This document shows, one piece after another, positions 12,102-35,747 of a stretch of 35,747 nt of DNA. Position 1 is the first letter of the stretch; the number at the start of each line of letters is the position of its first letter. The notes under the pieces are model-generated. The model saw only the letters and a list, made by a program, of their open reading frames with translations, did not search any database and had not been told where the DNA came from. Origin of the DNA: Granulicatella sp. WM01 (lineage in GTDB: Bacteria > Bacillota > Bacilli > Lactobacillales > Aerococcaceae); contig NZ_SPPB01000011.1 of NCBI RefSeq assembly GCF_004570605.1, positions 1 through 35,747 of the forward strand. Reading direction: 5' to 3'. The translations under genes and the position numbers were made by a program.

Positions 12102-12110
12102 GAAAACGTA

Positions 12111-12232
12111 ACACAAAGGGGTGCCGTTGGCTGAGATTATACCCTTAGAACCTGTTCGTTAATGCGAGTGTAGGGATTGTGAAATGTGCAAATGAATGCA
12201 TCTAGTCTTTGTGTACACTGACTAGGTGTTTT
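12111..12232 (+). promoter_or_regulatory. TPP riboswitch (THI element) with transcription terminator
   Basis: The conserved core is plain: AAAGGGGTGCC, GGCTGAGA (12129-12136), ACCCTTAGAACCTG and GCGAGTGTAGGGA. P1 forms between CACAA (12112-12116) and TTGTG (12177-12181). A terminator hairpin pairs CATCTAGTC (12199-12207) with GACTAGGTG (12220-12228), followed by TTTTTG. ACACAAAG (12111-12118), which includes the P1 5' strand, is also perfectly complementary to CTTTGTGT (12207-12214) inside the terminator. Inferred logic: TPP binding locks P1 and lets the terminator form; without TPP, 12111-12118 pairs with 12207-12214 and transcription reads through. Confidence 0.95.
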
Positions 12233-12286: not shown

Positions 12287-13024
12287 TTGAAAGTAAAGCG
12301 CTGGATAAATCAGTGGGGTAGTCTAATAATTGTCGTTGTTATTTGGGAGTTGGTTAGTTTCTTTGGTTTGGTACCTAAATTTTTATTGCCCAGTTTTACA
12401 CATGTTTTAACCGTACTGTTTCAAGAGGGAAATATTTTAGCAATGCATGTGCTGACAACATTAGTTGAGGCATTAATTGGACTAAGTTTTAGTGTTTTTT
12501 TGGCAGGGATATTAGCTGTTTTAATGGATAAGTACCATTGCGTGCATACATTTATGATGCCACTTTTATTGGTATCTCAAACAATTCCAACTGTTGCACT
12601 TGCGCCATTGTTGATTTTATGGTTTGGATATGGCATGATGCCAAAAATTATATTAATCGTTATTGTATGTTTCTTTCCATTGACGATGAGTTTACTCAAT
12701 GGATTTAAGCAAATTGATGAGGCGTATTTAAATATGATGAACAGTTTTCATGCGAGTTATTGGCAAATTATGAAATACGTTAAATTTCCATTTGCTTTAC
12801 CGTCATTTTTTTCAGGATTGAAAGTATCTACGTCATACGCTATTATTAGTGCAGTCATTGCCGAGTGGTTAGGTGGAGATAGTGGTTTAGGTGTTTATAT
12901 GACTCGTGTGCGTAAGTCTTATGCATTTGATAAAATGTTTGCAGTGATTATATTAATTAGTTTATTTAGTCTAATCTTATTGTGGGGTGTTAATCGAATC
13001 GAGCGTTTTGTGTTACAGAAATGA
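12287..13024 (+). CDS. thiX: ABC transporter permease for a thiamine precursor (ThiX-like)
   Basis: Inner-membrane permease of a SsuC/NitT-type importer. The 245-residue protein has about six transmembrane helices and the BPD_transp_1 coupling motif region (EAYLNMMNSFHASYWQIMKYVKFPFALPSF...GLKVS), with EAxxxA-type spacing. It starts at TTG 12287, decided by the strong site AAGGAGG (12274-12280). The TPP riboswitch directly upstream and the THI5/NMT1-like binding protein downstream assign the substrate to a thiamine precursor, probably a pyrimidine as for ThiXYZ. That substrate is inference from context. Confidence 0.85.
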   Translation: MKVKRWINQWGSLIIVVVIWELVSFFGLVPKFLLPSFTHVLTVLFQEGNILAMHVLTTLVEALIGLSFSVFLAGILAVLMDKYHCVHTFMMPLLLVSQTIPTVALAPLLILWFGYGMMPKIILIVIVCFFPLTMSLLNGFKQIDEAYLNMMNSFHASYWQIMKYVKFPFALPSFFSGLKVSTSYAIISAVIAEWLGGDSGLGVYMTRVRKSYAFDKMFAVIILISLFSLILLWGVNRIERFVLQK

Positions 13025-21999: not shown

Positions 22000-22029
22000 A
22001 TAAAAATAATGAATAAAAAATGAAATGAT

Positions 22030-22140
22030 CTGTCTTCGGGGTTAGGTGAAATTCCTTATCGGCGGTATAGTCCGCGAGCAAACGCAGAACTGGTGCAATT
22101 CCAGTACCGACAGTATAGTCTGGATGGGAGAAGAAAAGAT
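22030..22140 (+). promoter_or_regulatory. FMN riboswitch (RFN element)
   Basis: The core signature is clear: CTTCGGGGTTAGGTGAAATT, ATCGGCGGTATAGTCCGCGAGC in part, CAGAACTGGTG...CCAGTACCGACAG and TATAGTCTGGATGGGAGAAGA. It lies directly before ribU. Downstream, ATCCT (22171-22175) can pair with AGGAT (22183-22187), which overlaps the ribosome site, so I infer control at translation rather than by a terminator. Confidence 0.95.
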
Positions 22141-28111: not shown

Positions 28112-28387
28112 ATGGCAAACAGAGCAGATTTAGTAGAACGCGTAGCAAATGAGACTGGTTTTACAAAAAAAGATGTATCAGTTACTGTTGATGCATTATT
28201 TGAAGCAATTCAATCAGCACTTGCAGCAGGTGAAAAAGTACAAATTATCGGTTTTGGTAATTTTGAAGTACGTGAACGTGCAGCTCGTAAAGGTCGTAAC
28301 CCACAAACTGGTGAGGAAATCGAAATCGCAGCAAGCAAAGTTCCAGGATTTAAAGCTGGTAAAGCATTAAAAGACGCTGTTAAATAA
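28112..28387 (+). CDS. hup: DNA-binding protein HU
   Basis: HU is the main nucleoid protein and bends DNA without sequence specificity. The protein is 91 residues from ATG 28112 ([18 protein letters not shown]), set by GGAGGTGAG at 28099-28107. An in-frame TTG at 28097 overlaps that site and is not the start. The DNA-binding arm region [24 protein letters not shown] (quoted by family landmark, with RNPQTG) is intact, and the end KALKDAVK is typical. A terminator follows immediately. Confidence 0.96.
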
Positions 28388-28392
28388 TAGTG

Positions 28393-28434
28393 AATACTAG
28401 TAATCATAATATATAATGGTTACTAGTATTTTTT
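28393..28434 (+). terminator. Rho-independent terminator of hup
   Basis: AATACTAGTAATCA (28393-28406) pairs with TGGTTACTAGTATT (28417-28430) with one G-T pair around a 10-nt loop, followed by TTTT. Confidence 0.9.
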
Positions 28435-28643
28435 ATGTTAAGTCATATACCTCACAGTGCTGTGACGTATTAAAAAGTAAAATTATTTACTAAAGTCATA
28501 TTGAGCTATTTTATTATATTCTGTGGTTTAAATTTTTTGACGAAGGTTGAATTAGAAAGAAATGCAGCAAAAATATGGAGACACAATGGTTAGTTAATAT
28601 CATCTGAAAGCAAATATATATGCTATACAGATGAGAGTTTGTA
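28435..28643. other. Non-coding region between hup and the CRISPR leader
   Basis: No gene on either strand and no strong structure. This begins a 1.3-kb accessory stretch lying between two core genes. Confidence 0.5.
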
Positions 28644-28652
28644 TGATATAAT
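28644..28652 (+). promoter_or_regulatory. Putative promoter of the CRISPR mini-array
   Basis: TGATATAAT (28644-28652) is a full extended -10 element. TATACA lies at the right distance for a weak -35 box (28624-28629). A transcript starting near 28659 would run about 137 nt through an AT-rich leader before the first repeat. Its link to the array is inferred. Confidence 0.5.
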
Positions 28653-28795
28653 CCAAGAGTAGATTAAAAGGTCGTTTAGAATATGTAAACCTCGGTCTTA
28701 ACAAAAAAATGATATGTATTTCCGATATTTTAGATATAAAATAAATAAAAAATATCTTGTTTTTAGTTGTTTTTTCTAAAAAATAGCCATTTGGG

Positions 28796-28893
28796 GTCTA
28801 AAAGACCTTATTAATTTCTACTATTGTAGATTTTAATGTGCTACTGTTTTTACACTTGTCTGAAAGACCTATTATAGATAATAGGGGTGTACT
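28796..28893 (+). CRISPR. Orphan Cas12a (type V-A) mini-array: one repeat, one spacer, one degenerate repeat
   Basis: The 36-nt repeat at 28796-28831 begins GTCTAAAAGACC and ends AATTTCTACTATTGTAGAT. The latter is the near-invariant Cas12a crRNA handle, with stem TCTAC/GTAGA and loop TATT. A 26-nt spacer (28832-28857) follows, within the size range of type V-A spacers. At 28858 a second repeat starts GTCTGAAAGACCT (12 of 13 bases as in the first). It then diverges and loses the handle, as terminal repeats commonly do, and carries CCTATTA/TAATAGG instead. No cas12a, cas1, cas2 or cas4 gene is in the window. Repeat identity is direct from sequence; activity is unknown. Confidence 0.85.
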
Positions 28894-28974
28894 ATTTACT
28901 GTTATAGCTATTTAGGAGTGGAGATATTTACTCTAATATAACTAGATAAATTAGAATTTGAATGGAGAAAATAG

Positions 28975-29154
28975 ATGAAACTCAATAAAAATAAATACAT
29001 ACCAATAGGAATAGTATGTCTAGTTTTAGCAATAATTTTAAATAAGACATCTAATATAAGTGATTTAGTGATTGGTATTTTATATGGACTATCAATTGGC
29101 ATATTGCTATTGGAATTATTGATAGTAAAAAGTAATTCTCAGTTTGTTGAATGA
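28975..29154 (+). CDS. Small two-helix membrane protein of unknown function
   Basis: A 59-residue frame from ATG 28975 to TGA 29154 with the ribosome site TGGAGAA a few bases upstream. It starts MKLNKNKYIPIGIVCLVLAI. Two hydrophobic segments (about 9-23 and 32-51) flank a short polar turn (NKTSNISD), followed by a polar end. A perfect 12-bp terminator hairpin lies 18 bp past the stop, which supports a real gene. It is the only coding candidate next to the CRISPR mini-array, 81 bp beyond the degenerate repeat. I recognise no family; a toxin, immunity or stress peptide is possible but not shown. Confidence 0.65.
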   Translation: MKLNKNKYIPIGIVCLVLAIILNKTSNISDLVIGILYGLSIGILLLELLIVKSNSQFVE

Positions 29155-29172
29155 ATCATGAAACAGAAATGT

Positions 29173-29208
29173 AAAAGACAATAGAAATTAAAAGAGCTAT
29201 TGTCTTTT
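29173..29208 (+). terminator. Rho-independent terminator after the small membrane protein
   Basis: AAAAGACAATAG (29173-29184) pairs perfectly with CTATTGTCTTTT (29197-29208) around a 12-nt loop, with further T residues. Confidence 0.88.
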
Positions 29209-29465
29209 TTAGTGCAATATAACAAGTAGGTAAAAATGATGATTATCATTAAACTTGTAAAAAGAATTGTTTTAGATAGCATACCTTAATAGTCTAATCA
29301 ATATTACGGATTTTCATTATGATAAGTGTATAGTGTTGACACATATTATGATAATTAAGTTTGCAGTTCTAAGAGTGTATATGAGATGTTTTATAGGATT
29401 GTACAGTCCTCTACTATTAGTTAAGCAAATATCTTACATGAAAATAATAGAATAAATATGATTTT
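29209..29465. other. Non-coding region ending in an orphan terminator
   Basis: No reading frame with a ribosome site. It contains TTGACA near 29335 without a clear -10 box. The strong terminator at 29466 has no coding gene immediately upstream, so this stretch may encode a small RNA or be a decayed gene. Confidence 0.35.
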
Positions 29466-29494
29466 AGGAGTGACTGTTTTCAGTCACTCCTTTT
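29466..29494 (+). terminator. Strong orphan rho-independent terminator
   Basis: AGGAGTGACTG (29466-29476) pairs perfectly with CAGTCACTCCT (29481-29491) around TTTT, followed by TTT. It is the most G-C-rich hairpin in this AT-rich stretch, and the nearest upstream gene already has its own terminator at 29173. Confidence 0.9.
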
Positions 29495-29669
29495 AAAGTA
29501 ATGCATAAATGCTTTAATATTGGATAACTGCATTTTAAAATTAAGTTTATTTTTTCATGTTTTTGTCATAGTGTTAAAAAAATTGTTTTTCTTTACTGTT
29601 TATTACTTTTGCATTTAATAATTAAGAGGGGGATAAAAATAAGGAAATATGAATTATGGGAATGATTTA

Positions 29670-29678
29670 TGGTATAAT
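29670..29678 (+). promoter_or_regulatory. Extended -10 promoter before the phosphatase gene
   Basis: TGGTATAAT (29670-29678) is a perfect extended -10 element about 100 bp upstream of the phosphatase start. It probably drives the phosphatase-TPR-cca-pbp cluster. Confidence 0.6.
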
Positions 29679-29776
29679 AAATAAGCATAGTTTACGCTAA
29701 ATATGATGTGAGGATGGTTATATCATTTAATCATGCGTAATAACTATTTGGAATGTACAGAAAAGGAGAGAATATG

Positions 29777-30238
29777 ATGAAAGTATTATTTGTTTGTTTA
29801 GGAAATATTTGCCGTTCACCTATGGCTGAAGGTATTTTTAAAGATATGGTTAATAAAGAAAACTTAAGTCATCTTATTTCTGTTGATTCGGCTGCGACTG
29901 GAACGTGGAATTTAGGACAGGCACCTCATCAAAAAACGCAACAAAAATTAGCTGAAGTTGGGATAGACACTAATGGTATGGTATCCAGAGTATTGAATGA
30001 TCATGATTTAAGTTATGATTATATTATTGGAATGGATTCTAGCAATATTGCTAATATTAATCATTTCATTAAAAACAGACAATCTGGGCAAGTTATGCGT
30101 TTGCTACAGTTTGCCAAAGAAGATAGAGATATTGCTGATCCTTATTATACGGGTGATTTTGAACAAACCTTTCAGGATATTACAAAAGGGTGTCAAGGGC
30201 TTTTAGAGCATATAAAAAAAGAATTAAATGAGGTATAA
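29777..30238 (+). CDS. Low-molecular-weight protein tyrosine phosphatase
   Basis: A cytosolic phosphotyrosine phosphatase. The N-terminal loop CLGNICRS holds the catalytic Cys (C8) and Arg (R14). The general-acid Asp is in IADPYYTG near the C-terminus. The protein is 153 residues from ATG 29777. AAGGAG at 29763-29768 fits 29777 best; an adjacent in-frame ATG at 29774 is equally possible, and the longer start at 29753 is upstream of the ribosome site. Targets in Firmicutes include capsule or stress kinases, but no tyrosine kinase gene is nearby. Its end overlaps or abuts the TPR gene. Confidence 0.93.
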   Translation: MKVLFVCLGNICRSPMAEGIFKDMVNKENLSHLISVDSAATGTWNLGQAPHQKTQQKLAEVGIDTNGMVSRVLNDHDLSYDYIIGMDSSNIANINHFIKNRQSGQVMRLLQFAKEDRDIADPYYTGDFEQTFQDITKGCQGLLEHIKKELNEV

Positions 30239-35229: not shown

Positions 35230-35747
35230 ATGGATAAGAATACCAGAAAATTATTGAAATTGGAAGAAGAATTTGAATTTCCAGAAAATTGGCTAACTCA
35301 AGACGTGCAACATCATATTAAATATCATATTATTCATGCCAGCTGGGAAAGAAAAATAGAAAAATGTCATCATTGTGGGCATAATCAGCTGATTCGTTAT
35401 GGGAGTTATTTAAGAAAAATAAAATTATTACCTGTTTATGAAAATCCCACTAAATTACATTTAAAAATGAGACGTTATCAATGTACTTGTTGTCATAAAA
35501 CGATGACCTGTGAAACACCTATTGTTAAAAAATATTGTCATATTGCTACAGCTGTCTATCAAAAAGCTTTGTCACTATTATCAAAATCTGTGACGAAAAA
35601 ACATATTGCTCAAGAATTAGCTGTGTCTGACGCTTCCGTTCACCGTGTAATGCAACAGGCAGTGATCAGTTGTAAACAAACTTATAGCTATTTACCTAAA
35701 GTACTGTGTATTGATGAGTTTAAAGCTTTAAAAACAAGTTATTCAAA
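35230..35747 (+). mobile_element. ISL3-family transposase, 5' part (cut by window end)
   Basis: The frame starts at ATG 35230 after the ribosome site AGAGGTG and is still open after 172 codons at the window edge. The N-terminal zinc-binding domain has CHHCGHN and CTCCHKT. A helix-turn-helix follows (KKHIAQELAVSDASVHRVMQ), then the beginning of the catalytic domain at LCIDEFKALK, whose Asp is the first of the DDE triad. This order is diagnostic of ISL3 transposases. The element therefore continues to the right. The terminal inverted repeat could not be fixed. Confidence 0.92.

Follow-up and report, generated by a model that had tools for sequence, protein, structure and literature searches.

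A one-spacer type V-A CRISPR array in Granulicatella sp. WM01 as a probable remnant of a lost Cas12a system

The window, which denotes here the whole stretch of DNA that was analyzed (35,747 nt, contig NZ_SPPB01000011.1 of Granulicatella sp. WM01), contains a short CRISPR array of the Cas12a (type V-A) kind. The array is located in the interval between the HU gene and a TPR gene (28388-29752), where GC content is 25%, compared with 32% for the window. The same interval contains an open reading frame for a 59-aa hydrophobic, two-helix-like protein (28975-29154) with weak family matches only. Elsewhere in the window, two riboswitches score above the Rfam gathering thresholds, namely FMN (22028-22139) and TPP (12107-12193). 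The end of the window (35230-35747) falls inside an ISL3-type transposase gene, which is probably the reason for the contig break. The features of the array locus are as follows.

28624-28652, + strand: promoter-like TATACA-17-TATAAT site whose second hexamer is preceded by TG (consensus scan, 10/12)
28651-28680, - strand: degenerate V-A repeat, reversed, alignment score 32; leader anti-repeat in a + strand transcript
28681-28795, + strand: AT-rich, leader-like interval between the anti-repeat and the first repeat, so called by position
28796-28831, + strand: first repeat (R1), full V-A repeat with an intact handle at 28813-28831
28832-28857, + strand: spacer of 26 nt; convincing target not found
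28858-28879, + strand: second, terminal repeat (R2), with the 5' arm of the handle lost through a 14-nt internal deletion

R1, GTCTAAAAGACCTTATTAATTTCTACTATTGTAGAT, is a complete 36-nt type V-A repeat, and the landmarks by which the initial annotation had recognized it are borne out by further evidence. Its handle occurs as a single copy in the 2.03-Mb genome, compared with zero copies of a reversed control pattern. With up to three mismatches allowed, two handle matches are observed in the window versus 0.14 expected by chance, R1 being the sole perfect one. The predicted fold of repeat and spacer as RNA is that of the V-A handle (z -2.95). Direct reading also agrees with the earlier description of one 26-nt spacer, TTTAATGTGCTACTGTTTTTACACTT. 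The second repeat begins with GTCTGAAAGACC at 28858, and here the initial annotation was right that the start is kept and the handle broken, but it recognized only 13 starting bases. R2 in fact comprises 22 nt, GTCTGAAAGACCTATTATAGAT, and differs from R1 by one 14-nt deletion (TTATTAATTTCTAC) and two substitutions (local-alignment score 24 against the repeat). The deletion adjoins a TATT microhomology and takes out the 5' arm of the handle stem; since it is internal, the 3' end TAGAT is retained.

The stretch 28796-28879 is confirmed as a genuine type V-A one-spacer array. It has a repeat of about 36 nt with the handle stem TCTAC/GTAGA at its end, and R1 and the deleted R2 provide the two repeats, separated by a spacer within the 26-30 nt range of such arrays. 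The last repeat of V-A arrays reportedly gathers mutations that prevent extraneous crRNA (PMC13187072). R2 is thus the expected end of an array rather than the sign of a special element. Neither a second array, for which a search had been proposed, nor a second copy of the 96-nt unit was found in the genome.

A local-alignment scan detected a degenerate third copy of the repeat, TCTAAACGACCTTTTAATCTACTCTTGGAT, on the reverse strand about 115 nt upstream of R1. Its score of 32 compares with 23-24 for the strongest remaining site of the window once R1 and R2 are set aside. Shuffling the 405-nt interval gave this score once in 3000 trials, and shuffling the whole window gave it 4 times in 300; dinucleotide shuffling of the upstream 150 nt, in one orientation, never gave it in 5000. 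The promoter-like site that adjoins this copy could drive transcription of the array. Shuffled sequence contains at least as many such sites (13.3 expected against 9 observed here), which makes this one weak evidence for a promoter.

No Cas protein, Cas2 and Cas4 included, is present among the 30 proteins of the window, in agreement with the earlier statement that no cas gene lies nearby; other PADLOC hits of these proteins are read as general ATPase/GTPase similarity or as weak. The genome, a draft of 219 contigs that is 99.62% complete, contains no match to Cas1 and a single match to Cas12a (TIGR04330). This match, an open frame of 216 aa that aligns with positions 4-206 of the 1288 in the model, is located on a different, 103-kb contig between proS and a gene for a pyridine-nucleotide-disulfide oxidoreductase. 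PADLOC, Pfam REC1 and solved Cas12a chains identify it as a true Cas12a amino terminus. Where a functional V-A system has an intact Cas12a, this genome has only the N-terminal stub; the remainder of the gene, about 1080 model positions, was found nowhere in the assembly. The frame ends within a palindromic element of about 60 bp (L007 8646-8705), so that a repeat element truncates cas12a about 206 codons into the gene. Many copies of this element are present in the genome, intergenic where inspected, and several contig ends lie near them. Slightly more than 200 bp downstream of the stub end, the DNA resembles the terminus of the ISL3-type element found at the close of the window. No close relatives of the stub were detected in 84,980 species by the method used.

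Type V-A is rare in this bacterial group, as the initial annotation had suggested: a full Cas12a was found in one of 395 genomes drawn across Lactobacillales, and two further genomes gave marginal scores (E ~4e-4). The single positive genome (G047) belongs to the same family and a different genus, and its cas12a-cas4-cas1-cas2 operon precedes an array with 40 copies of the handle (L014). Its array shares with the one described here a 36-nt repeat, the handle AATTTCTACT-NN-TGTAGAT, spacers of the usual size and an upstream anti-repeat. The repeat 5' half and the handle loop are unlike in sequence, and the intact cas genes and 40 handles of G047 contrast with a cas12a stub, no cas1 and one spacer in Granulicatella sp. 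WM01. About 80 nt past the last regular repeat of G047, a diverged V-A repeat with an intact handle (L014 15610-15644) immediately precedes a thioredoxin-like gene and is a candidate ectopic repeat. Among viral contigs, phages and plasmids, the only relative of the G047 Cas12a is one distant Butyrivibrio plasmid copy, and no V-A handle was detected in the 18 kb around it.

In a species-level genome collection, the repeat pattern was matched by one contig, from the Prevotella draft RUG536 (L015), whose repeat agrees with R1 at 35 of 36 bases. An amino-terminal Cas12a stub lies directly upstream of this single repeat, near a contig end. The Prevotella locus thus resembles the present case in its nearly identical repeat, in a Cas12a cut to its N-terminal part and in the lack of further repeats; it differs in that stub and repeat are side by side and a second repeat is not seen. 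It looks like a second, independent relic of the same kind. Within the genus Granulicatella, two other species have neither Cas12a nor the handle. Their HU-TPR interval measures about 70 bp in one (G002); in the other (G001), it extends over about 1.6 kb and contains different small genes. Since its content is unlike between species, the array occupies a variable spot; with differing content in all three species, the interval is a possible small insertion hotspot.

The comparison of the spacer with phages, plasmids and the host genome, which the initial annotation had recommended with attention to the PAM, revealed no convincing target. Within its own genome, at up to three mismatches, no site with a PAM and seed stood out, and PAM-plus-seed matches were as many for a reversed control pattern as for the spacer. 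A phage and plasmid search with the spacer returned E values of 1 or worse, and alignment with the G047 cas operon gave low scores (16 and 20). In viral contigs, an exact 18-mer search found three matches of the leading 18-19 spacer bases, where the similarity stops, and only one of the three has a TTTA PAM.

The most probable reading, with a probability of roughly 0.78, is that the array is a remnant of a V-A (Cas12a) array that outlived its cas genes. It is based on the array anatomy, the lone N-terminal Cas12a stub, the missing Cas1 and the lack of any Cas protein in the window. Additional arguments come from the sister species without handle or Cas12a, the differing HU-TPR interval, the last-repeat mutation that is typical of V-A arrays and the Prevotella parallel. 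Of the three readings offered by the initial annotation, this one fits best. Judging from the two remains, an ancestor would have carried a V-A system, whose cas12a was truncated at the repeat element with loss of the 3' part, whose cas1 disappeared, and whose longer array may have collapsed through recombination between repeats. A transcript of the locus, if made, would contain a correct crRNA handle and guide, and a crRNA, if processed, would begin at AATTTCTAC and measure about 40-45 nt. With no Cas12a to act on it, such a transcript would presumably stay unprocessed and unused, and the locus is therefore most probably inert at present, unless cas12a is re-acquired. The perfect R1 and the still open frame of the stub suggest that the loss may be recent or that some constraint may remain. 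Stub and array lie on different contigs, and in both sister species a distance of several hundred kb separates the genes that adjoin them here; a single locus of origin is not required by this arrangement, and the link between the two loci is a presumed one.

Other explanations are much less probable. The array could be a solitary one used in trans by a Cas12a that was missed in the draft or arrives on a mobile element, as the initial annotation had considered for a solo crRNA. The intact handle and guide, the correct predicted fold and the division of the assembly into 219 contigs are compatible with such use. It is nevertheless improbable, because an assembly of this completeness holds the stub as its sole cas12a sequence and no Cas1, and because intact Cas12a is so rare in the order. 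The array could also be a regulatory mini-array of the CreR/CreA type, guiding Cas12a to a partly matching cas or toxin promoter, with the 59-aa membrane protein as a possible toxin. CreR has been described for V-A systems and CreTA employs short ectopic arrays, and the present locus resembles both in being a short array with a degenerate repeat, apart from a main array. It is also distant from the cas stub and has a small hydrophobic open reading frame as its neighbor. The regulatory crRNA directed at a host gene, which was also among the earlier proposals, is nonetheless poorly compatible with the spacer. Upstream of the cas12a stub, where a CreR guide would be partly complementary to the promoter next to a PAM, the longest seed run beside a TTTV motif is 6 nt, equaled by 8% of shuffled guides. 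At the array locus (28380-29800), where a CreTA guide would partly match the promoter of the adjacent toxin, the best run is 5 nt, equaled by 45%. With no outstanding PAM-flanked seed match at either place or genome-wide, no promoter target and no intact effector, and with a perfect R1 where CreTA is reported to have its more diverged repeat first, this function is hardly to be expected.

It is similarly improbable that the repeat is an RNA anti-CRISPR (Racr) against Cas12a, that is, a solitary mobile-element repeat that a phage or island has left behind. Racrs of type V-A exist (PMC10651486) and, like the present locus, they have one intact V-A repeat and no cas genes in the vicinity; the AT-rich interval that varies between species would also suit such an origin. 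The exact V-A handle is moreover frequent in viral contigs, in 103 stretches (L056-L135), nearly all of which have it once and most without the repeat 5' half. However, a Racr unit is defined as a truly solitary repeat, with no partial repeat within 100 bp (PMC10651486), and here R2 follows 26 nt downstream, at spacer distance, and the degenerate copy precedes R1 by 115 nt. Signs of a mobile element were not seen in the surroundings, and a comparison of the interval with phage records revealed no similarity. Among 74 distinct viral handles, only 4 have a repeat 5' half starting with GTCT or GTTT, and none is preceded by an anti-repeat scoring 32, the closest reaching 31. A chance hairpin, or a piece of an unrelated conserved element, is untenable. 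A handle alone can arise randomly, as apparently in another Lactobacillales genome (G079) with one handle match, no V-A repeat 5' half and no Cas12a found, but here the genome combines a repeat of the full 36 nt with another one a spacer length away and with a cas12a stub.

The reversed repeat copy has a counterpart in the G047 leader. There, an inverted stretch complementary to the repeat at 19 of 22 bases (L014 ~12974-12995) is accompanied by a second complementary stretch, 11 nt exact (L014 13009-13019). The anti-repeat score in G047 is reached by a fraction of 0.0002 of dinucleotide shuffles, and controls on the sense strand and in the trailer remain at chance level. Beyond the anti-repeat, the leader-like interval 28681-28795 resembles the G047 leader no more than by chance, so it is presumably, rather than demonstrably, a leader. 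In the predicted fold of G047, with an assumed transcription start, the anti-repeat bases pair with the repeat at 0.81-0.83 on average and the handle stem of the first repeat is suppressed (probability 0.01-0.05). In the predicted fold of the window array, also with an assumed start, the handle stem persists (0.90-1.00). A virus-borne V-A array (L159) has no leader anti-repeat, which shows that the feature is not universal.

These similarities allow the tentative suggestion, which is more readily doubted than accepted, that V-A arrays of the family to which Granulicatella belongs carry a leader anti-repeat, consisting of the inverted repeat 5' half and part of the handle, that might pair with the first repeat of the pre-crRNA or take part in spacer integration as an inverted element of the DNA. 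This hypothesis was formed post hoc from two genomes only, and the leader anti-repeat is a lead, not a result. A known parallel is the leader-repeat hairpin of Cas13 (type VI) arrays, in which the leader is likewise complementary to the first repeat. In Cas13 arrays, however, extraneous crRNA derives from the first repeat, whereas the layout of V-A arrays, of which two cases are considered here, is the opposite; since extraneous V-A crRNA comes from the last repeat, this layout predicts otherwise.

If general, the leader anti-repeat would be a cis-acting element for V-A arrays, of a sort known from Cas13 arrays, where a different array layout accounts for it. The viral stretches with a handle only provide a large candidate set for RNA anti-CRISPRs. 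As the probable relic of a lost V-A system, the array of Granulicatella sp. WM01 would represent a snapshot of how such a rare system disappears in Lactobacillales, with the effector truncated, cas1 lost and a one-spacer array remaining.
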